Of a DNA stretch of 64,000 bases, positions 42,423-53,845 are shown in pieces. Position numbers and translations under genes: made by a program. The stretch's first letter is position 1. Every line of letters begins with the position of its first letter. The notes under the pieces were generated by a model that did no database searches, was not told the DNA's origin, and was given only the letters and a program-made list of their open reading frames with translations. The DNA is from Idiomarina fontislapidosi (GTDB lineage Bacteria; Pseudomonadota; Gammaproteobacteria; Enterobacterales; Alteromonadaceae): positions 124,001 to 188,000 of the forward strand of contig NZ_QJST01000001.1 of assembly GCF_003226255.1 (NCBI RefSeq). Direction: 5' to 3'.

Positions 42423-45041
42423 ATGGCGAAATCGCTCGTTATTGTCGAGTCCCCGGCAAAAGCCAAAACAATTAATAAATACCTAGGCAACGATTTTATC
42501 GTTAAGTCTAGCGTAGGGCACGTGCGCGACCTTCCTACCAAAGCGGTAGAAAAGGTACCTAGCAAATCTGCGGCAGAAGTTCGCAAAATGTCGCCAGAGG
42601 AAAAAGCGGCATATCAGCAGCAACGTGACTTTAAACGTTTGGTTGCGCGGATGGGCATCGACCCTGAGCATGATTGGGATGCGCATTATGAAGTGCTGCC
42701 TGGCAAGGAAAAGGTGGTTAAAGAGCTGACCCAACTCGCCAAAAAATCAGACAAAGTCATCCTCGCGACGGATTTGGACCGCGAAGGGGAGGCGATTGCG
42801 TGGCACTTGCGTGAATTGATGGGCGGCGATAACGACCGTTATCAACGTGTGGTGTTTAACGAGATTACTAAAAATGCGATTCAAGATGCGTTCTCGCACC
42901 CCGCACAGCTGAATTTAGACCGCGTTAACGCACAGCAGACACGGCGCTTCTTAGATCGTGTCGTGGGCTTTATGGTGTCGCCGTTGCTGTGGAAAAAAAT
43001 CGCACGAGGGCTTTCGGCCGGGCGTGTTCAGTCGGTCGCGGTTCGCCTTGTGGTCGAGCGTGAACGCGAGATCAAAGCATTTGTGCCAGAGGAATACTGG
43101 GATGTGCATGCTGACCTCGCAACGCAGGCGAAAGATGACTTGCGCATGCAAGTGGTTAAGCAAGCGGGCGAACAATTCAGACCATCAAATAAAGAGCAAA
43201 CTGACGCGGCATTAGCGACGCTGAAAGACGCGCAGTATGAAATTACCGCACGCGAAGATAAGCCAACATCGAGCAAGCCTTCGGCGCCGTTTATTACTTC
43301 GACTTTACAGCAGTCGGCGAGTACGCGGTTAGGCTTTGGTGTTAAGAAAACCATGACGCTCGCGCAACGGCTTTATGAGGCCGGTCACATCACCTACATG
43401 CGTACTGACTCGACCAACCTCAGTGCCGATGCAGTGAGCGCTTGCCGAGATTATATTGAGCAAAGTTTTGGTGCGAATTACCTGCCTAAGCAACCCAATC
43501 GTTACGGATCGAAAGAGGGCGCACAAGAGGCGCACGAGGCGATTCGTCCTTCGGATGTGAATATCAAAGCCGATAAGTTGGGTAGCATGGACCGTGATGC
43601 TCAGCGCCTGTATGAATTGATTTGGCGCCAGTTTGTGGCGTGCCAAATGGTACCCGCAAAATACGACAGCACGACACTGATTGCGCAAGCGGGTGAGTTT
43701 GAGCTTAAAGCACGTGGTCGCGTGATGCGTTTTGCGGGTTGGACCAAGGTGCTACCGCCCTCATCGTCGAAGAAAGACGGTGATATGACCTTACCTGATA
43801 TCGGTAAAGGTGAGGTCCTTGCGCTTAACCAATTGGATCCGCAACAACACTTCACCAAGCCACCTGCGCGTTACAGTGAGGCATCGTTGGTAAAAGAGCT
43901 TGAGAAGCGTGGCATTGGCCGCCCTTCAACCTATGCATCGATTATCTCAACGATTCAGGACCGCGGTTACGTTAAAGTCGAGAATCGACGCTTTTTCGCC
44001 GAAAAAATGGGTGAAATCGTTAACGATCGACTCATTGAAAACTTTACCGAGTTAATGAATTACAACTTTACCGCGGAGATGGAGCAGGCGCTCGATGACA
44101 TCGCTGCTGGCAAACGTAATTGGAAAGAAACGCTGGATAAGTTTTATGAGGACTTTAAAGGAAACCTCGAACAAGCCGAGCGCGATCCGAATGAAGGTGG
44201 GATGCGCGGCAACCAAATGGTGATGACCGATATTGAGTGTCCTAAATGTGGTCGTGAAATGGGCATTCGCACGGCATCAACGGGTGTTTTCTTAGGCTGT
44301 TCAGGTTACAACTTACCGCCGAAAGAACGCTGTACTCAAACGCTCAACCTGACGCCAGGCGAAGAGGCGGTGAAGGTTACCGACGAGGATGAACGCGAGA
44401 CTGAAGCACTGCGTGCTAAAAAGCGTTGTGCTAAATGTGGTACAGCGATGGACAGTTACTTGATTGATGAGAAGCGTAAGTTACATGTGTGTGGTAATAA
44501 CCCCACCTGTGATGGCTACCTGATTGAACAAGGTGAGTTTCGCATTAAAGGCTATGACGGACCGACCATTGAGTGCGACAAGTGTGGCTCGGAAATGCAG
44601 CTTAAAACAGGTCGATTCGGTAAGTATTTTGATTGCACCAGTGATGACTGCAAAAATACACGTAAACTATTGCGTAACGGGGAGCCTGCGCCGCCTAAAG
44701 AGGATCCGGTGCCGTTGCCTGAGTTACCGTGCGAAGATTCCGATGCGTATTTTGTGCTGCGTGATGGTGCTTCAGGCATTTTCTTATCAGCCAATACGTT
44801 CCCGAAATCGCGTGAAACGCGTGCTGTAAAAGTAAAAGAACTGGCTCGCTTTAAAGATCGTTTGCCAGCTAAGTTTAAGTATCTAGCCGAGGCGCCGCAG
44901 GAAGACGATGACGGTAACGAAGCCATCGTACGTTTCTCACGCAAGAACAAAGAACAGTATGTGGTGACAGAAGTCAATAAAAAGCAAACAGGCTGGAAGG
45001 CACATTACAAGAGCGGTAAATGGGTGATTGATAAAAAATAA
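42423..45041 (+). CDS. topA: DNA topoisomerase I
   Basis: The 872-residue type IA enzyme relaxes negative supercoils. The Toprim domain opens with [15 protein letters not shown]. The active-site tyrosine is Tyr325 in [11 protein letters not shown]. Three C-terminal four-Cys zinc fingers follow ([24 protein letters not shown]), then a zinc-ribbon-like tail. Length is normal. It ends in a terminator, after which the pilus operon begins. Confidence 0.97.
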
Positions 45042-45139: not shown

Positions 45140-45535
45140 ATGACCCTGCGAAAGTCGTTTTTTTACCTTGCCTTCTTGGTTGTGTCATACATAGGCATGG
45201 GTTCAACCAGTATTGCACAAGATTGTTTACCGCTTGATCTCGGCCCTGCTGAATACGAGCGTCCACTCGAGTGGCAATCTCAGCCTCATGGGGTTTCCGC
45301 TATGGTTCGTGCTGGCTTACTGGAGCCGCAGGTTATTCGGCTGTTAAAACAGCATTTGGCAATCAAAGTCGTTGATTGGCAGGCGTCTCACCATCATCAA
45401 TGGCCGACTGATTATTTGCTTGAGGCAGATTCTTGGCAGGCATTTTTTACCCGCTTACTGAAGCCGTTTGGCTTGCAACTGGTGCTGTACGCAAACCAAG
45501 GCGCGGTGGTGCGTTATCAGGAACCGCCGCTGTGA
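45140..45535 (+). CDS. PilL/TcpQ-like periplasmic protein of the type IVb pilus operon
   Basis: The 131-residue product has a signal peptide (cleavage near SIA/QDC). The C-terminal half (YLLEADSWQAFFTRLLKPFG, then LQLVLYANQGAVV) resembles the TcpQ/PilL C-terminal domain that assists the secretin of type IVb pili. R64 PilL is longer; only this part is present. Its stop overlaps the GTG of the secretin gene (GTGA). Identification rests on weak similarity plus position directly before pilN. Confidence 0.55.
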   Translation: MTLRKSFFYLAFLVVSYIGMGSTSIAQDCLPLDLGPAEYERPLEWQSQPHGVSAMVRAGLLEPQVIRLLKQHLAIKVVDWQASHHHQWPTDYLLEADSWQAFFTRLLKPFGLQLVLYANQGAVVRYQEPPL

Positions 45536-47001
45536 ATTACTTACGTTGGATGCTGATCTGGGTTTGTGGTTGTGTGAGTGCTGCCTGTAGTTATGATCCG
45601 GCCGCGTTGATCGCACAAGCGGATGCGCTAGCGCAACAGCAGCAGCAAAGTTTAGCTGAACAGTATCACTATCAAGTGGCACCGGAATCCCCTGAAACCG
45701 TTATTAAGAGCGAGCAGTTCTATGTCCCTGAGTTGGCAAAAAGCTCAGCAGACAAACCGATTTGGTATAGCCAGCCGTTACAAACACAACTGACTAAAGT
45801 ACCCCTGCTACAGGCGTTACAAACGGTGTTTACGCCGTTAAATGTTGCTGTATTACTCGACCCTGAAATAGCGAAAGATACACTGATATCGAGCGACTTT
45901 TCGGGAACAGTTGGAGAATGGCTTGCTTGGTTGAGCAACGGCCAGCAATTGTTTATCGAATATGAGCCTTATGCGGTGCATCTAAAGCGCTATCAAGTAA
46001 AACGTTACGATCTCGCCTTTCTTGCTGGCTCAACGCAGTTTTCATTAAATGAGCAGGGGAGTCAGCATGTCGGAGCAGATAAGGCTGGGCAACTGGGTTT
46101 TAAATCAGCGGAGCTATCGGTTTGGAATGAGCTGGAAAAATCCGTGTCACTGATGCTTTCAGCCAATGGCGAAATGGCGTTGAATGCTAATGCCAGTGCT
46201 TTGTTAATTAAAGATACGCCCAGTGTAATCAAACACATCGATCGTTACATTGGACAATTAAACGCAAGCTTAACGCGCCAAGTTGCGTTAGATGTGCAAG
46301 TGATTGAGGTGCGGTTTAGTGACAACGAACAATACACTGTTGATTGGTCGAGTGTGCGAAGAAACAGTCAAGGGGCGCCCTGGCTTTCATCACAAAGTGG
46401 TTCTGAAAGCTGGCTACAACAGGCGGCAGGGCAGTTCATTTTGAGCCCGTTGAGCGGTCCGAGAAACTCCATTGACGTGCTTGTACAGGCGTTGCAACAG
46501 CAGGGCCAGGTAAAAGTCAGCCACCACCCGCGTATTTTAACATTAAACCATCAGGTCGCTCAGTTATTAGTGGAAGAACAACAAGCATACTTGGCTGAAT
46601 CAGAAGTGAGCAGCACGCCTTACGTAGGACGACAACAACGCTTAAAACCAGGCAGCGTAACAACAGGCTTTAGACTTTTTGTGTTGGCGAATATATTGCA
46701 GCGTGACGTGTTGCTGCACTTATCATCACAAATGAGCGCGTTAAAAGGTATGAGCCTTGTACAATCGGGCGACAACATGATTCAAACGCCACACACGTCG
46801 CGTAAGCACTTCTTCTTAAAAGCGCTGGTTGGACACTCTGAAACCTTGTTACTCACTGGGTTTCGTAATCAGCACACAGAAGCGGGTCAGACGCGCTCTG
46901 GAATTAGTTGGTTACTCGGTGGCGGTCAACAACAAACCCAAGAAAATAGCGAGACGTTACTTTTAATTACTCCACGAATAGTTGGCGTTAATGATGACTG
47001 A
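45532..47001 (+). CDS. pilN: PilN-type secretin of a type IVb pilus
   Basis: I place the start at GTG 45532 (or ATG 45550); the frame is open further upstream but overlaps the preceding gene. The 489-residue product has a signal with an imperfect lipobox (CVSAAC, Cys19). The C-terminal half is a secretin: ALDVQVIEVRFSDNEQYTVDW, VKVSHHPRILTLNHQVAQLL, and the terminal strand ETLLLITPRIVG. It should form the outer-membrane ring through which the pilus passes. It is coupled to genes on both sides: GTGA with the preceding gene and an 11-bp overlap with the next. Confidence 0.85.
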   Translation: MNYLRWMLIWVCGCVSAACSYDPAALIAQADALAQQQQQSLAEQYHYQVAPESPETVIKSEQFYVPELAKSSADKPIWYSQPLQTQLTKVPLLQALQTVFTPLNVAVLLDPEIAKDTLISSDFSGTVGEWLAWLSNGQQLFIEYEPYAVHLKRYQVKRYDLAFLAGSTQFSLNEQGSQHVGADKAGQLGFKSAELSVWNELEKSVSLMLSANGEMALNANASALLIKDTPSVIKHIDRYIGQLNASLTRQVALDVQVIEVRFSDNEQYTVDWSSVRRNSQGAPWLSSQSGSESWLQQAAGQFILSPLSGPRNSIDVLVQALQQQGQVKVSHHPRILTLNHQVAQLLVEEQQAYLAESEVSSTPYVGRQQRLKPGSVTTGFRLFVLANILQRDVLLHLSSQMSALKGMSLVQSGDNMIQTPHTSRKHFFLKALVGHSETLLLTGFRNQHTEAGQTRSGISWLLGGGQQQTQENSETLLLITPRIVGVNDD

Positions 47002-48118
47002 GTGGGTCACACAAAGCTTTCGCTTGCGCCTGGGAACCAAGCGTCCATCCCGCAGACAGCTTTTAACGGTCATTGCTGAATGGAACTACCCCTACTGTGG
47101 ACTTATCTTTTTTATGCGCCAATGGTGGCTGAGTCTCAGTCATCAACCGGGGCTGGATATCCTGTTTTGTGAGCGCGGCCAGGACCAACACTCAGCTCAC
47201 TGTGGCTGGATTATTGCCGACACTCAGCCTGCCCGTCTCGTGGTTTGGCGAGACGGGCGGCTCGCTGCTATCGAGCAAGGGGACGTAGGCCATTTGCTGG
47301 GCCGAATAAACGCTTGGCAAGCTGAATACTCCGATTTGAACGAACCCCGGGCGTGGTTTTGGTGCTCACAGCAACCTGCTCCAGCACTATGGTGTGGCAA
47401 TGTCCTTTCCGCAAAAGAATGCTTTGACAGCTTTGTTCGCTTGCTGCCTGTTGAGCACTATACTCAGCGCTCCTCAGCTTCTGTGAAATGGGGGATCGGC
47501 ATAGTCGTTATCGTCAGTCTCGCAGCGGCATGGGGCATTGCTGTGGTTAGCAGCCCAGCGAACGAAACTGAACAGGCTAACTCAAAACAGATGATTAAGC
47601 GCATCGACAGCGCTGCGTTAATTAACCAGCTTGGCATGTTAATGAGCCATCCCTTTTATCAGTGGCAGCGCCTAACGCGTATTGATGTGACGCCCGCAGG
47701 TATGCGCCTCACTTGGCAAAAGCCCAACCGGTTGGGGGACGCCAATCAGGGCAGCTCGCGTGTAGAAATGCGTCAAATTCCCCTCGCTTCGCATACTGAT
47801 GTGTCATTCAGCCGTACAGCTTCGAACAGTGCGTTGCTGAGTGATTACCGTCAGCAGTTTTTCGATGCGCAGATAGCGCAACAGGGCGCATCGCAGTGGA
47901 TGCTCAGCCTGGACATGATGTCATTCCGCCATTTGGAAACACTGCTACGTTGGCTACGCGAACATCCTTACTTTTCACTTTCATCGTTAACAATGAGGTA
48001 CCAACATGGTTATTGGTCTGTGCAGTGGACGCTGGAAAATACGCTGGGTCAGTCAGGTGAGTTTGATGGTCATATTGATAAGCCCAGTAGCGGCTCAGCA
48101 ACAGCACAATCAGAATGA
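46991..48118 (+). CDS. PilO-like inner-membrane assembly protein (type IVb pilus)
   Basis: The start is ATG 46991 or 46994, inside the secretin end. The 375-residue product has a soluble N-terminal part of about 160 residues, one membrane helix (WGIGIVVIVSLAAAWGIAVV, about 166-185) and a C-terminal periplasmic part. This is the layout of PilO of R64-type pili. Sequence similarity is not obvious by eye; the call depends on topology and on its place between secretin and ATPase. Confidence 0.6.
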   Translation: MMTEWVTQSFRLRLGTKRPSRRQLLTVIAEWNYPYCGLIFFMRQWWLSLSHQPGLDILFCERGQDQHSAHCGWIIADTQPARLVVWRDGRLAAIEQGDVGHLLGRINAWQAEYSDLNEPRAWFWCSQQPAPALWCGNVLSAKECFDSFVRLLPVEHYTQRSSASVKWGIGIVVIVSLAAAWGIAVVSSPANETEQANSKQMIKRIDSAALINQLGMLMSHPFYQWQRLTRIDVTPAGMRLTWQKPNRLGDANQGSSRVEMRQIPLASHTDVSFSRTASNSALLSDYRQQFFDAQIAQQGASQWMLSLDMMSFRHLETLLRWLREHPYFSLSSLTMRYQHGYWSVQWTLENTLGQSGEFDGHIDKPSSGSATAQSE

Positions 48119-48422
48119 TGATTTAGCCGATTCTCAAGCCTGGCACCCAGAGTTACAAGCATACCAACGTTGGCAATCGGCTATGGAACAAAAGAAGCGC
48201 GATTTAGCCTTCGCAGAATTGCAACTGAACTGGTTAAAGAAGCAAGTTGAGATAGCGCACCAACAACGCTTGTTGAAGCCCTCGGCGGTAGCCGTAGCAC
48301 GCGAACCGGTTAACTGTATTCGAATTGCCGATGATGACTGGCGGTTGACCGGTGATGTTAAGCATTGGTCATGGGGAACTCGCGTGGCTACACAAGTTAA
48401 GCAACAAACAGGGTGCTTTTAA
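48006..48422 (+). CDS. PilP-like small exported protein (type IVb pilus)
   Basis: The start at ATG 48006 provides a complete signal peptide (basic GRWKIRW, hydrophobic core, cleavage VAA/QQQ), although it overlaps the preceding gene by 113 bp; a GTG at 48057 would leave almost no basic region. The 138-residue protein has a helical coiled-coil-like segment (about 55-88) and a C-terminal part with two cysteines. PilP of R64 is about this size and sits at the same place. Function is inferred by position. Confidence 0.55.
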   Translation: MVIGLCSGRWKIRWVSQVSLMVILISPVAAQQQHNQNDDLADSQAWHPELQAYQRWQSAMEQKKRDLAFAELQLNWLKKQVEIAHQQRLLKPSAVAVAREPVNCIRIADDDWRLTGDVKHWSWGTRVATQVKQQTGCF

Positions 48423-48424
48423 TT

Positions 48425-49822
48425 ATGGACGACATGCTGCAACTTGATGCAAAGGCGCTATATGGATGCACTATCCACCCAGTTATTTTTCAGTATTGCG
48501 AGAAGCTGTTAAATCAATGGCACGCAGAGGGGTGTGATGACAAAGCGATGTTAGCGACTGAGTCAGGACTGTTGGTGTGCTCGCCAAAGGCATTTAAACA
48601 TGCAGCGCTTGAGCGCGAGAACCTAGCCAAACTATTACGAGATTACATACAGCAACCAGCGCAGTGTGCGCTTGCCGATGCAGGTGTAATTCGTGCGGCA
48701 ATACTGACTTACCGAACAGGGCGACCTCAAGCCGAACAACAAGACTCAGTTGCTGACCAGACGCATGCCCAACAGTTATTGTCTGATCTTGTTGCTGAGG
48801 GTTTAGCTAAAGGGGCCTCGGATATTCATCTACGCTTTAGTAAATATTTTTGCCGGACCTGTTTTCGTGTGAAAGGGTTGCTGGTTGATCACCACCAACG
48901 CAATCGAGAGGCAATGACAGAGGCAATCGCAGCAGCACTGAACACACGTAGTCACGACTATAATGAAGTGTTTAACGAACAAAGTAGCGACAGTGCGAGT
49001 TTGTTAGTACCAGTAAGACGTGATGGCAGTCCCGTATCTGAGCTAAAAGTGCGATTGCAGAAATCCCCGCTTAGCGATGGTTTTGCTGTCACTTTGCGTT
49101 TGCTGGCTACTGAGATCACAAGTCAATTATCATTACAATCGCTTGGGTTTGAGTCAGATATTATTAATGGTATCGATTGCATGTTGGCTCAGCGGAGCGG
49201 TCTTATTCTCATCGTTGGCCCTACCGGTCAAGGTAAAACAACGACATTAGCGGCGTTGCATCAACGCTTTAGCGAGGCAAAAAAAATCATTTCACTCGAG
49301 GATCCGGTGGAGTTAAAGCAGCCGAATGTTGAGCAGCGCTGGATAGACTCATCAAAGCAGGAGAATGGTTTTGCGACAGCAATAAAAATCGCACTGCGTG
49401 AGGATCCAGATGTCATATCTGTCAGTGAAATTCGTGATGGGCTCACTGCAGCTGCTGCCATTCGCGCGGCACTGACGGGGCATTTAGTCACGGCTACGCT
49501 GCACGCTAGTGATTCGTTATCGGCGCTTGAACGGCTTAGAGACCTTGGTTGTGGATTAGAGCAACTACTTACGCCTGGCGTGTTACGAGGTGTTATTGCG
49601 CAACGTCTGACCTTTCAACGGGGTCAGCCCTCACTGATTGCTGAGTATATTGTGATTGATCAAGTTGCTCGTCAGTTTGCTTTAAGTAACGACTATCAGG
49701 GGTGGCGTGCGCATTTAAAACGCTGTGGTTGGCGCGGTCTAACGGAACGAGGCGTTACACATTTATTGGCTGAAACGCCGCGAGAGTATCACTATTCAAG
49801 CACAGGACCGACAGCCAAATGA
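48425..49822 (+). CDS. pilQ: PilQ-type pilus assembly ATPase (GspE/PulE family)
   Basis: The start is ATG 48425; a GTG at 48413 overlaps the preceding gene. The 465-residue secretion ATPase has Walker A GPTGQGKT (265-272), the Asp box IISLEDPVELKQPNVEQ, Walker B DPDVISVSEIRDG, and the His box TATLHASDSLSALERL. The N-terminal segment GASDIHLRFSKYFCRTCFRVKG is typical of the family. In R64-type systems PilQ powers pilus extension; no retraction ATPase is encoded nearby. The stop overlaps the next start (ATGA). Confidence 0.9.
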   Translation: MDDMLQLDAKALYGCTIHPVIFQYCEKLLNQWHAEGCDDKAMLATESGLLVCSPKAFKHAALERENLAKLLRDYIQQPAQCALADAGVIRAAILTYRTGRPQAEQQDSVADQTHAQQLLSDLVAEGLAKGASDIHLRFSKYFCRTCFRVKGLLVDHHQRNREAMTEAIAAALNTRSHDYNEVFNEQSSDSASLLVPVRRDGSPVSELKVRLQKSPLSDGFAVTLRLLATEITSQLSLQSLGFESDIINGIDCMLAQRSGLILIVGPTGQGKTTTLAALHQRFSEAKKIISLEDPVELKQPNVEQRWIDSSKQENGFATAIKIALREDPDVISVSEIRDGLTAAAAIRAALTGHLVTATLHASDSLSALERLRDLGCGLEQLLTPGVLRGVIAQRLTFQRGQPSLIAEYIVIDQVARQFALSNDYQGWRAHLKRCGWRGLTERGVTHLLAETPREYHYSSTGPTAK

Positions 49823-50838
49823 TGGGTATGGGCAGACAGCGTCAATGGCAGTGGGTTGAGGACTACTGTGTTTGGCTCGAGGATGGCAGCGGTCCGCGCG
49901 AAGCGGCCGAAGCGATGCGAACTCAGGCGGCGTATTTTAAACTTGATGCTGAACAGAAGTTGGCGGAGCGGCTGCAGATTGGCTTAAGGCGTGGTCAAAC
50001 CATTGCCCGGGCATTGCGCGGCGAGCTTAAGCAAGATTTACTCGAACTGTTCCTGATAGGTCAACAGTACCATTGCTTAACCGATTTACTTAACGACTAT
50101 CGTGACGTGACCGTAGAGTTACAGCACTTACGTTGGCTGTTTTATAAACAGCTGCTTTACCCTGTTTCTATCTTGCTGACCGTATTGCTGGCATACGCCT
50201 ATGCTGCAAGTAGCTATTTACCGAAATTATTAAGTTATACCGAATCGAAGACATCGGACTGGACGGTGGCGTGGGTGCTTAGTGTGGGAAACAACATTGC
50301 GTCTGGCTGGTGGTGGTGGCTGGTATCCATCGCAACTGGATTATTTTGTTGGCGTTGGACAGCTCAAAACTGGACGGGCGCGTATCGGACACGGTTAGAG
50401 CGCTATGGGATATTTGCTCAGTATCGCGCATTAAATGCGTTGTGGCTGACGCGTTTAGTGGCTGTTCTCATGCATCACAGAGTCGCGCTGGATACTATTT
50501 TTGCAGTGCTGAAACGTGTTGCTTCACCTTATGCTCGCTGGCACTTAACGCAAATGCAGAGACGCTTGGCGCAAGGGCGGGTGAGTTTAGCGATTGTGCT
50601 CGACACGGGCTTGCTGCTTCCTCGGCAGTTATTCCGAATAAGTCACCGGCAACAATTTAGTGGTCAGCGGGAGGCGCTTATTAAGGTTGCGCAGCGCAGT
50701 TATATCGATATTCAGCGCAGCATCGCCTACCAGCAGCGTCTCTGGTTAGTGTTGTGCTATCTCGTGATTACCGGCTTGTTGTTACTGCTGCTTAGCGCCG
50801 TGGGTAACACGATGATGCGCGTCATGATGTCGATTTAA
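49819..50838 (+). CDS. pilR: PilR-type inner-membrane platform protein (GspF family)
   Basis: The 339-residue protein has the GspF/TadC-like layout: a soluble helical domain (about 1-105), membrane segments at about 110-135 and 150-190, a second helical domain (about 195-300, with HHRVALDTIFAVLKRV) and a last helix near the C-terminus. It should anchor the ATPase at the base of the pilus. It is coupled to pilQ by ATGA overlap. pilS follows after 21 bp. Confidence 0.83.
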   Translation: MMGMGRQRQWQWVEDYCVWLEDGSGPREAAEAMRTQAAYFKLDAEQKLAERLQIGLRRGQTIARALRGELKQDLLELFLIGQQYHCLTDLLNDYRDVTVELQHLRWLFYKQLLYPVSILLTVLLAYAYAASSYLPKLLSYTESKTSDWTVAWVLSVGNNIASGWWWWLVSIATGLFCWRWTAQNWTGAYRTRLERYGIFAQYRALNALWLTRLVAVLMHHRVALDTIFAVLKRVASPYARWHLTQMQRRLAQGRVSLAIVLDTGLLLPRQLFRISHRQQFSGQREALIKVAQRSYIDIQRSIAYQQRLWLVLCYLVITGLLLLLLSAVGNTMMRVMMSI

Positions 50839-50859
50839 TCTTTTCAAGGAGCGATTAGG

Positions 50860-51303
50860 GTGCGAGTAAAAGTTAAAGGATTCACATTTATCGAAGTGTT
50901 AGCAGTGCTGAGCATTATTGCTATTGCTTCGCTGGGGACATTAGTGCTGCGTGATTGGGCGGTTGGGAATGCTCGAGTGTCGGAGGCTAAAAATCTCATT
51001 ACAACGTTACAAGCAGGCGCACAAATGTGGAAGCCGGCAAGCGGTGAGTTTACTGGTATTAGTATGACCGAGCTCAGTAATATAGGTGCTGTGCCTTCTG
51101 ACTGGGCGGATGGTGTGGGTAAAAATCCATGGGGTGGTGATATCATGATCGGCCCAGATACGGTCGATGCATCTAAATATATTATACGACTTACTAATGT
51201 TGGAAGCGCTGAGGAAGGGCAGCGATTGGTTCGTGACTATACAGATATATCTGCTCTGACATCTTATGCGGATGGCGACTTCACTGTAACTTTCCAAGGT
51301 TAA
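50860..51303 (+). CDS. pilS: Type IVb major prepilin (PilS-like)
   Basis: It starts at GTG 50860, 9 nt after AAGGAG. The 147-residue product has a 7-residue leader ending KG, then FTFIEVLAVLSIIAIASLGTL, a prepilin N-terminal helix with Glu5. The mature part has PilS-like blocks (SEAKNLITTLQAGAQMW, NPWGGDIMI). The leader is much shorter than usual for type IVb, and no cysteine is present, so there is no C-terminal disulfide. A strong own SD fits high expression. Confidence 0.85.
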   Translation: MRVKVKGFTFIEVLAVLSIIAIASLGTLVLRDWAVGNARVSEAKNLITTLQAGAQMWKPASGEFTGISMTELSNIGAVPSDWADGVGKNPWGGDIMIGPDTVDASKYIIRLTNVGSAEEGQRLVRDYTDISALTSYADGDFTVTFQG

Positions 51304-51707
51304 TGCGTAATCACGGCTTTAGCCTATGGGAAGTCGTATTAGCCGCAGTGATACTAGCCGGTGTGTGGCAGGTATCATTTGCGGCGTGGCGTTGGCAAGC
51401 TCACGTGCAAACGCGACTCCAATGGCAGCAACAACTGATCATGTTGATTCAAGCACAGCGCGAGCATTATCAACGGTTTGGCGCGTTTGCGCTGACCGAA
51501 GCGCAACTGGCTCGGCAAGGCCGATACGTAATACCCGTGTGGCCCTTCGCTACACGTTGGCGGTTTATCCCCGATCCCTATTACAACGAACAATTATTCA
51601 TGCGCTCACCGCTCGAAGGGGTAGAGCCCGCGCTTTTACTTGGCAAACACTTACCTTTTGAACAGCAGGGCAATGAGGTCACTATTCGTGTTATGGGGAC
51701 GCCTTAA
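51303..51707 (+). CDS. Minor prepilin-like protein
   Basis: The start codon overlaps the pilS stop (TAATG). The 134-residue product begins MRNHG/FSLWEVVLAAVILAGVW, a prepilin cleavage signal with Glu at +5 and a hydrophobic helix. The rest is basic and aromatic, without recognisable domains. It could be a minor pilin that primes or tips the fibre, in the place where PilV occurs in R64, but it is far shorter and has no shufflon. Confidence 0.65.
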   Translation: MRNHGFSLWEVVLAAVILAGVWQVSFAAWRWQAHVQTRLQWQQQLIMLIQAQREHYQRFGAFALTEAQLARQGRYVIPVWPFATRWRFIPDPYYNEQLFMRSPLEGVEPALLLGKHLPFEQQGNEVTIRVMGTP

Positions 51708-52350
51708 CAAGCATCACCGGCAGAGCGGGCAAAGCTTGGTCGAAGCCGTGGTGGTGTTGCCGTTTATGCTGTTATTTGGTTTGTTATTGGCTCAATTACT
51801 TTACCTATGGTGGGCCCAGCAAACATTATTCGTAGCCACGCAGTACGCAGCACGCGTCGGTGCCATCAATCATGGCGAAAAACGGCCAATGCGAGTGATT
51901 TTAGCGGCGACAATGGCAAGCTTAGCGCCAAAAGATAAGGATATTGAAAGCTGGCAAAATATGCTTAAATCTGTTGCGGCGCAACAGCTGCATGGGCTGC
52001 AGTTTGCCGAGATAAGCATCAAACAACCCACCGACGAAATGTTTAGTCTGTTTAAAGAGCGCTTTTACGATCAGGAAGCGCAAACATGGATTGAAGAAAT
52101 TCCTGTTGATCATTATTGGGCGCGGCGGCAAGCCGCCGAGGACGAAGAGGCTTATGTTGCAGCAACGACCTTAAAAATTGAAGTGACTTGGTGCCTAGCG
52201 TTAAAAGTACCGTTAGCTGATCGCGTACTATCGGAGCTGGCGCCATTTTCAGCGCGTTGCGAGATGGCTAATCAAATGACGGGAGATAATTATTGGCCGC
52301 TCACAGCAACCGCTGAACACAGAATGCTCAGCGGTTACCGTAAGCGGTAA
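51673..52350 (+). CDS. TadE-like pseudopilin at the end of the type IVb pilus operon
   Basis: I choose ATG 51673 (CAGGG just before), overlapping the preceding gene by 35 bp; the frame is open to 51640. The 225-residue product has HRQSG/QSLVEAVVVLPF followed by a long hydrophobic helix, the hallmark of TadE/TadF pseudopilins, with a G/xxxxE cleavage site. A soluble C-terminal domain with two cysteines follows. TadE proteins normally belong to Tad/Flp pili, so its presence here is unusual. The stop lies within a small hairpin. Confidence 0.72.
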   Translation: MRSLFVLWGRLNKHHRQSGQSLVEAVVVLPFMLLFGLLLAQLLYLWWAQQTLFVATQYAARVGAINHGEKRPMRVILAATMASLAPKDKDIESWQNMLKSVAAQQLHGLQFAEISIKQPTDEMFSLFKERFYDQEAQTWIEEIPVDHYWARRQAAEDEEAYVAATTLKIEVTWCLALKVPLADRVLSELAPFSARCEMANQMTGDNYWPLTATAEHRMLSGYRKR

Positions 52351-52355: not shown

Positions 52356-53216
52356 TTATACCTTGTCGTGATAATCGACACACGCTTGTAGGGTGTTCTC
52401 AATAAGCGACGCGACCGTCATCGGACCAACACCGCCCGGCACCGGGGTAATCCATCCGGCACGTTGAGCCGCGGTTTCAAACTCGACATCACCTGTCAGA
52501 CGTCCGTCGTGCAACCGATTCATGCCGACATCGATAACGATAGCACCTTCTTTAATCCAATCTCCCGGAATAAACTCAGGTTTACCGACGGCGACCACAA
52601 CAATGTCCGCCCGCCGTACATGCTTTTCTAAATCATTGGTGAAGCGATGACACACCGTGGTGGTCGCCCCTGCGAGGAGTAACTCTAAGCTCATTGGGCG
52701 ACCAACAATGTTTGACGCGCCCACAACAACCGCGTTGAGGCCGTGCAAATCAACCTGCGTACTCTCAAGCAGGGAAATAATGCCTTTGGGTGTACACGGT
52801 CTGAGTGCCGGAATGCGCTGCGCGAGGCGACCGACATTATATGGGTGAAAACCATCGACATCTTTATGCGGATGGATACGCTCAAGAATCGGCGTTGCAT
52901 CTAAGCCCGCGGGCAGTGGTAACTGCAACAGGATGCCGTCAATCTCAGGATTGTCGTTGAGCTCATCAATTAGTTGCTCGAGTGCTGCCTGCGAGGTATC
53001 ACTCGGCATGTCATAATCAAACGAGCGAATACCGACTTGCTCACACGCGCGTCGTTTGTTGCCCACGTAGACTTCCGATGCGGGATCTTGTCCAACCAAA
53101 ACGACCGCCAAACCTGGCGCGCGCTTCCCTGCGCTGAGTCGTTCGTCAATTTGCGTTTTTACGGATGCTCTGATGTTTGCAGCGATTGCTTTACCATCAA
53201 TTAGCTGTGCAGGCAT
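52356..53216 (-). CDS. folD: Bifunctional methylene-THF dehydrogenase / methenyl-THF cyclohydrolase
   Basis: I choose ATG 53216 ([16 protein letters not shown]), 8 nt after AAGGG; the frame extends to 53237. The 286-residue enzyme interconverts methylene-, methenyl- and formyl-tetrahydrofolate. Active-site Lys lies in [13 protein letters not shown], and the blocks [10 protein letters not shown] and [13 protein letters not shown] are intact. Confidence 0.95.
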
Positions 53217-53370
53217 ATAGGGACCCTTGCTTGTCAATGAAATTAGAATTGAAAAAGCTTTGAATGGCTTAGTAGTTTACCGCTATTTGAGGTGAAATGT
53301 CACTGATTGTCGGAATTATGGTCAGCTTGGCGCAAAAGTAGCCAAACGACCGGTTTTTGCCAAAAAAAGT

Positions 53371-53448: not shown

Positions 53449-53525
53449 CGGCGAGTAGCGCAGTTTGGTAGCGCACTTGGTTTGGGTCCAAGGGGTCGCT
53501 GGTTCGAATCCAGTCTCGCCGACCA
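53449..53525 (+). tRNA. tRNA-Pro (UGG)
   Basis: 77 nt with encoded CCA. The acceptor stem CGGCGAG/CTCGCCG and anticodon arm CTTGG-TTTGGGT-CCAAG give anticodon TGG. It is identical to the copy at 53769-53845. Confidence 0.96.
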
Positions 53526-53557
53526 TTTTGACTCTAGGGTAGCAGGAATGTTCGATT

Positions 53558-53634
<77 letters not shown>

Positions 53635-53661
53635 GAACGCGCCATGAAGATTCAATACAGT

Positions 53662-53738
53662 GGTGGGTGTAGCTCAGTTGGTAGAGCCCCGGATTGTGAT
53701 TCCGGTTGTCGTGGGTTCAAGTCCCATCATCCACCCCA
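53662..53738 (+). tRNA. tRNA-His (GUG)
   Basis: 77 nt including the extra G at position -1, which faces C73 as required for HisRS, and the encoded CCA. The anticodon loop TTGTGAT gives GTG. Confidence 0.95.
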
Positions 53739-53768
53739 CTTCTTCTCTTCTAAATCCTTTTTTAAAAT

Positions 53769-53845
53769 CGGCGAGTAGCGCAGTTTGGTAGCGCACTTGG
53801 TTTGGGTCCAAGGGGTCGCTGGTTCGAATCCAGTCTCGCCGACCA
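53769..53845 (+). tRNA. tRNA-Pro (UGG), second identical copy
   Basis: Same 77 bases as 53449-53525, with the preceding AAAAT also shared. The order Pro-Arg-His-Pro indicates a local duplication around the Arg and His genes. Confidence 0.96.

Follow-up and report, generated by a model that had tools for sequence, protein, structure and literature searches.

Type IVb and Tad pili are treated as separate classes of different origin in the available text of PMC6668835, so a part that served both would be notable. The locus considered here lies in the window, that is, the whole stretch of 64,000 nucleotides of Idiomarina fontislapidosi DNA that was analysed, and consists of nine genes, named L, N, O, P, Q, R, S, V (gene 8) and E (gene 9). 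It resembles the thin pilus system of R64 and the IncI plasmids (pilL-V) in its gene order L-N-O-P-Q-R-S...V, with a PilN secretin, a PilQ ATPase and a PilR platform protein, in the predicted type IVb fold of its pilin, and in the Shufflon_N-like motif of PilV, which is found in the long relatives. It differs from R64/IncI in having no PilM, lytic transglycosylase PilT, PilU peptidase or shufflon recombinase; besides, its S has a short leader and no Cys, its V is shortened in the clade of the window, and E stands last. The earlier note had also pointed to a missing retraction ATPase, which is correct but not distinctive, because the one IncI-type pil operon read here has none annotated either; that operon carries a lytic transglycosylase gene after its pilin gene.

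R64-type operons without PilU are described for PAPI-1 and for Burkholderia Tfp7, with a peptidase in trans for PAPI-1 and, as suggested, for Tfp7, and in Tfp7 PilL is missing, with TcpQ possibly in its place (PMC3984277, text available in part). With these precedents, the missing parts of the Idiomarina operon are not new in themselves. The PAPI-1 and Tfp7 operons keep PilM, unlike the Idiomarina locus, and the available part of PMC3984277 makes no mention of a TadE-family gene in them. In the Tad/Flp (type IVc) system the counterpart is the minor pilin TadE: E is a full-length homologue of the gene after tadD at 8 loci, but unlike these it is the last gene of a type IVb operon at topA-folD, outside the tad locus, with the host tadA about 119 kb away on the same contig. 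A further relative is the plasmid pilus operon of Shewanella aestuarii (NZ_CP050315), which has L, N, O (weak), Q, R and S in the same order, but which differs in an extra prepilin and a very large PilV-like protein; no match to E was found within the 23-kb stretch read. Judged from titles and abstract openings among the matches listed, the literature holds no description of the nine-gene locus.

The nine-gene locus and its parts

The nine ORFs occupy positions 45140-52350 on the plus strand, all of them open, with ends that overlap or nearly abut, and are flanked by topA on one side and folD on the other (Table 1). The tight spacing and the gene order given by the earlier note are thus real, and the genes are intact. 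When the window sequences of L, O, P and gene 8 were searched alone, no HMM match above the curated cut-off was obtained. A promoter and terminator scan gave no more sites than were found in shuffles. Beyond folD, positions 53449-53845 of the window hold a tRNA cluster, Pro(TGG)-Arg(TCT)-His(GTG)-Pro(TGG), in which the two tRNA-Pro share an anticodon.

Table 1. Features of the locus and its flanks, in positions of the window
Feature	Position	Strand	Description
topA	42423..45041	+	Upstream flank, conserved
L	45140..45535	+	131 aa, PilL/TcpQ position, STN-like; ORF
N	45532..47001	+	PilN-type secretin; GTG start 45532 inside the end of L, overlapping the L stop
O	46982..48118	+	PilO position, very divergent; assigned by position and a weak IncI PilO2 match
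P	48006..48422	+	Small protein, PilP position; assigned by position only
Q	48413..49822	+	Assembly ATPase; PF00437 3.9e-56
R	49819..50838	+	Platform protein; T2SSF PF00482 4.2e-6
S	50860..51303	+	Major pilin; N_methyl and PilS_N
Gene 8 (V)	51303..51707	+	PilV-like prepilin, 134 aa
E (gene 9)	51676..52350	+	TadE-family minor pilin; PF07811; ATG 51676 (start inferred) inside gene 8
folD	52356..53237	-	Downstream flank, conserved

L has a signal peptide by eye and one Cys that is invariant in 43 aligned rows. It had been described as a PilL reduced to a TcpQ-like piece, which our searches do not bear out. TcpQ (PF10671) is not among the 11 families listed for the 43 members (E up to 10), while the control, IncI PilL, matches TcpQ at 7.3e-15; profile comparison with one IncI operon gave no PilL match either, and the STN Pfam family is matched by 11 of the 43 members, at best with 2e-4. 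An L homologue (1.2e-4) lies directly 5' of the secretin on the Shewanella plasmid. N matches the PilN family TIGR02520 at 1e-54, though under the equivalog cut-off, and the Secretin family PF00263 at 4.6e-14; the HMM of its family matches IncI PilN at 9.7e-57. For O, which has one membrane helix by eye, the match to IncI PilO2 is weak (family HMM 5.8e-3; hhalign 14%), and hhalign gives P against PilP of the single IncI operon compared 1%.

Q and R belong to T2SSE and T2SSF, both over their cut-offs, and Q has the Walker A sequence GPTGQGKTTT. A tetracysteine pattern is found in Q at 37 of 45 loci; it is absent from L019-L025, from L059 and from the window itself, the motif having been lost in the window's clade. 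S carries N_methyl and PilS_N (PF08805, 22.1 bits with a cut-off of 22), a short leader (in the window, 7 residues ahead of the cleavage site as called) and the residues G-1, F+1 and E+5. Type IVb pilins have a long leader and a C-terminal disulphide loop; no Cys occurs in mature S at any of the 45 loci, and the structural model of S predicts a type IVb fold. Leader length, according to the available text of PMC10191384, is no discriminating feature. S turned out to be the most conserved protein of the operon, unlike most surface-exposed major pilins, which are usually variable. Between S and V, a motif scan found a prepilin of 70-92 aa at 19 of 45 loci, which is absent in the window.

Taken by its genes L-N-O-P-Q-R-S-V, the locus is an R64-type operon for a type IVb pilus, located on the chromosome. 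In such a machine, S would be the major pilin and V the PilV-type pilin of the tip, Q and R would form the motor and platform, and N and L the channel through the outer membrane. As the earlier note had it, the pilus locus holds no prepilin peptidase gene, and the sole PF01478 match in the whole genome is at C4:112173. The source genome has gene sets for T2SS, MSHA, type IVa-like, Tad and type IVb systems (C4, C8, C1; L014-L018), plus PilT. With a single PF01478 match among five gene sets, one PilD presumably serves all of them, and the type IVb pilins would be cut by this enzyme encoded elsewhere in the genome.

Conservation of the operon in Idiomarinaceae

To see how far the nine-gene order extends, as the earlier note had proposed, we searched it in other genomes, and found it at the topA-folD position of 6 additional genomes, selected by Q, and at all loci (45 of 45) of a set selected by S. 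In a second set of 42 loci (25 from the genus Pseudidiomarina, 16 from Aliidiomarina and 1 from Idiomarina), which overlaps largely with the first in species, 37 loci have the complete operon. Such agreement shows that the arrangement is not due to chance. The possibility raised earlier that the operon is a decayed remnant is also ruled out, as the window ORFs are all open and the order is kept in both sets. The L-to-V operon of Idiomarinaceae is best explained as a complete, vertically inherited type IVb pilus operon of R64 type.

The 45 loci are what remained of 55 after ten weak ones (L064-L073) were set aside. A contig end truncates L040 within L, and in L054 gene O is broken across two frames; both loci were left out of the identity means of L, N, O and topA. 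The operon loci of G779 and G796 were left out too. Alignments A6, A7, A8 and A9 comprise 43, 38, 29 and 26 rows of about 46. The topA/folD tree has 55 rows (L040 had no topA), and in it the nearest named relative of the window is Idiomarina sp. MD25a.

Gene 8 as a putative PilV

Gene 8 had been taken for a second prepilin standing in place of PilV. In most relatives, the homologue is 236-427 aa long, and three of the six relatives scanned match Shufflon_N weakly (best 6e-6, 26.4 bits with a cut-off of 27.5). The family profile matches IncI PilV at 1.6e-10 (hhalign 86.8%), and a W..C...G(G/K)C tail is conserved at the end of most long forms. These matches of the long relatives rule out gene 8 as a novel prepilin and make it a relative of PilV instead. 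In the window and in L019-L025, which belong to the same clade, gene 8 measures only 134-135 aa, and in the window the Shufflon_N-like region is gone. By sequence, gene 8 thus appears to be a shortened PilV whose tail was lost in the window's clade. A pattern scan found no Gly-x4-Glu prepilin motif in gene 8 of L022-L025, which suggests further decay of PilV in that clade.

Identity of gene E

E encodes a pilin-like protein of 224 aa that matches TadE (PF07811) with 26.2 bits, over the cut-off of 22.9, in agreement with the TadE-like character ascribed to it before; six E relatives divide evenly, three over the cut-off and three below. In an alignment of 46 rows, E+5 is invariant, G-1 is conserved at 90% or more, and two Cys are invariant. 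The model of E has a pilin-like fold with a long N-terminal helix (residues 5-64, mean pLDDT 92). No other TadE match in the genome passes the cut-off, the second one (0.048) being below it and carrying a stop.

To find relatives of E, we ran an order-wide profile search over 295 genomes, of which 34, including that of the window, had any match. Outside the host's GTDB family there were 8 strong matches from five families (4.8e-18 to 2.9e-35), while the remaining ones were short and covered mainly the N-terminal helix. All 8 strong homologues turned out to be encoded in Tad loci, each as the next gene behind the TPR gene (tadD); these loci were found through the E that they carry, and the Pfam check covered two of them. 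With the E HMM, these copies from outside Tad loci reach 72-121 bits, and the one homologue compared in full gave 99.4% in hhalign, with 30% identity over 210 columns. On this evidence, E is a homologue, over its full length, of the minor pilin encoded after tadD in the Tad loci of other families. A relationship to a gene of the MSHA locus was considered and rejected (BLAST 28%, 1e-4; profile only 0.18).

When the reading frame of E is taken at its longest, it overlaps or touches V at 43 of 45 loci, which makes joint expression with the type IVb genes probable. Of 360 genomes sampled across the class as a control, 87 had a PilN-like secretin match at 1e-25, a threshold that also admits MshL-type secretins, and 52 had a TadE match; comparing the lists by eye, we found no other genome with both on one contig, although draft contigs could hide such linkage. 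One reading is a true hybrid, in which E is a dedicated minor pilin of the type IVb pilus and acts with PilV. The family-wide operon order and the E/V coding overlap speak for it, as does the position of E as the genome's only TadE match over the cut-off; the full-length relatives of E outside the family, however, are genes of Tad loci, and we consider the hybrid improbable.

The Tad locus of the host

The host genome has a Tad locus of its own, in the order Flp, TadG-like, TadF-like, CpaB, secretin, TadA, TadB, TadC, DUF192 and TPR, which is also how the 8 outside Tad loci are arranged. By BLAST, nine of these ten core genes, DUF192 included, are found in 8 of 8 outside loci, and the TadF-like gene in 5 of 8. 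All ten genes are present in 43 of 43 Tad loci of Idiomarinaceae, and TadA was found in 61 of 62 genomes. A full-length E was found in none of the 43 Idiomarinaceae loci, where the best match reached 20 bits. The host Tad locus also encodes other proteins that look like pilins; a recent origin of E by copying from this locus is unsupported, there being no full-length E in it.

Retention of E without the pilus genes

Within the three genera, E is present wherever it was looked for by profile or synteny, namely in 26 of 26 and 17 of 17 genomes of two genera and in 10 of 10 operon-less Idiomarina. It is an ORF at 41 of the 42 fetched loci, the exception being at a contig end, and six of the 43 profile matches hold one stop codon.

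Two lineages have lost pilus genes from the locus. In Idiomarina (GTDB genus g1), S was found in 9 of 19 genomes, and the ten operon-less genomes all have the order topA-E-folD, with a complete E of 37-39% identity to that of the window. They form a single clade (SH-aLRT 81), so a single loss suffices. Within it, dN/dS of E is 0.04-0.11 in 8 pairs. At five of the 42 loci of the second set (L154-L158), all from Aliidiomarina, the order is topA-L-N-E, with L and N intact and O-V gone at the locus; four of them have E overlapping the stop of N, with folD next, and the fifth contig ends in E. These genomes also form a single clade (SH-aLRT 100) and have a complete Tad locus, which includes a secretin gene of its own. 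A homologue of L is present at all 42 loci. For most comparisons of operon genes with the nearest relatives, and for most pairs within the L-N-E clade, dS was saturated; the one L-N-E pair with unsaturated dS in all three genes gave a dN/dS of 0.09 (N), 0.15 (L) and 0.08 (E). In the measurable pairs, E is under purifying selection.

The order of retention, with E kept longest, then L and N, then O-V, shows that E is independent of the type IVb pilus. As to the hybrid of an R64-type machine and a Tad-type pseudopilin drawn in the earlier note, the operon and its TadE-like end gene are confirmed, but a hybrid machine is weakened by the persistence of E, which is retained under constraint at loci that no longer have the pilin, motor and platform genes.

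L, N and E might instead be an independent unit that works for a different machine of the cell, be it a filament or a secretion system, the type IVb genes being a separable neighbour. The five topA-L-N-E genomes, with N full-length and E overlapping its stop at four, fit this, but E stands without L and N in ten Idiomarina, the Tad loci of the L-N-E genomes own a secretin, and the absence of O-V applies to the locus only, as these genes could sit elsewhere in the five genomes. We give this explanation little credence.

One genome, G753, has neither a TadA match nor the pilus operon, and yet its E is retained, 98% identical to that of its neighbour G759; the two differ at four amino acids, of which one change falls on the G753 branch. 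In G753 (L121), the Tad stretch of its close relative G759 is replaced by other sequence, and E is still found at topA-folD.

Possible partners of E

Given the Tad ancestry of E, the empty slot in the Tad loci and the persistence of E, the gene is most simply read as encoding, in trans, a minor pilin of the Tad pilus. TadE, TadF and TadG are proposed to form tip complexes of the Tad pilus and to prime its assembly, according to the available text of PMC12075869. We favour, at slightly better than an even chance, the explanation that E is a displaced Tad minor pilin, presumably moved from a Tad locus into the type IVb operon, which serves Tad in trans and possibly both pili. E would most likely be processed by PilD and then enter the tip or initiation complex of Tad, and it may serve the co-encoded type IVb pilus as well. 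Against a purely Tad role stand its co-encoding with the type IVb genes, the presence of E in G753 without TadA, and the retention of L and N.

A stronger form of sharing would have E prime or tip type IVb and Tad pili alike, so that Tad still needs E after the type IVb pilus is lost. Consistent with this, E shares the operon of the type IVb genes at 45 of 45 loci and yet is kept without them, and it is absent from 43 of 43 Tad loci. We compared evolutionary rates across 34 genomes and 65 branches, leaving out G102 (a near-copy), G772, G028 and the five reduced genomes. The covariation of E was similar with both systems, 0.081 with type IVb and 0.106 with Tad, and the difference of -0.02 has a 95% interval of -0.16 to 0.165, which spans zero; the covariation was 0.030 between the systems and 0.123 and 0.140 within them. 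This favours neither the Tad nor the type IVb partners of E. The covariation is weak and its interval wide, however, and we regard such sharing, in which E would be incorporated into both filaments, as unlikely. If true, it would make pilus tips exchangeable parts between filament classes, E being encoded in the operon of one machine, absent from the locus of the other and retained after loss of the first.

If the preferred explanation is right and E is a Tad minor pilin out of its place, the locus shows how misleading the label TadE can be when the gene stands in a pilus operon: gene order points to a hybrid and comparative genomics to a displaced Tad part. The Idiomarinaceae are a rare natural experiment, in which pilus genes were stripped to two depths (O-V and L-V) in two lineages and E was kept under selection. 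The full operon, L-N-E and E alone form a natural deletion series for proving tip sharing, and both the machine that E serves and its sharing between pilus classes are directly testable in these environmental marine strains.

In three operon-less Idiomarina (L105, L109 and L114), the longest frame of E has as its start an ATG preceded by a strong GGAGG site, and it crosses a terminator-like hairpin (CCCGCTGC...GCAGCGGG, followed by a T-run) ahead of the cleavage site. The hairpin could be an attenuator, or the start could be wrong.
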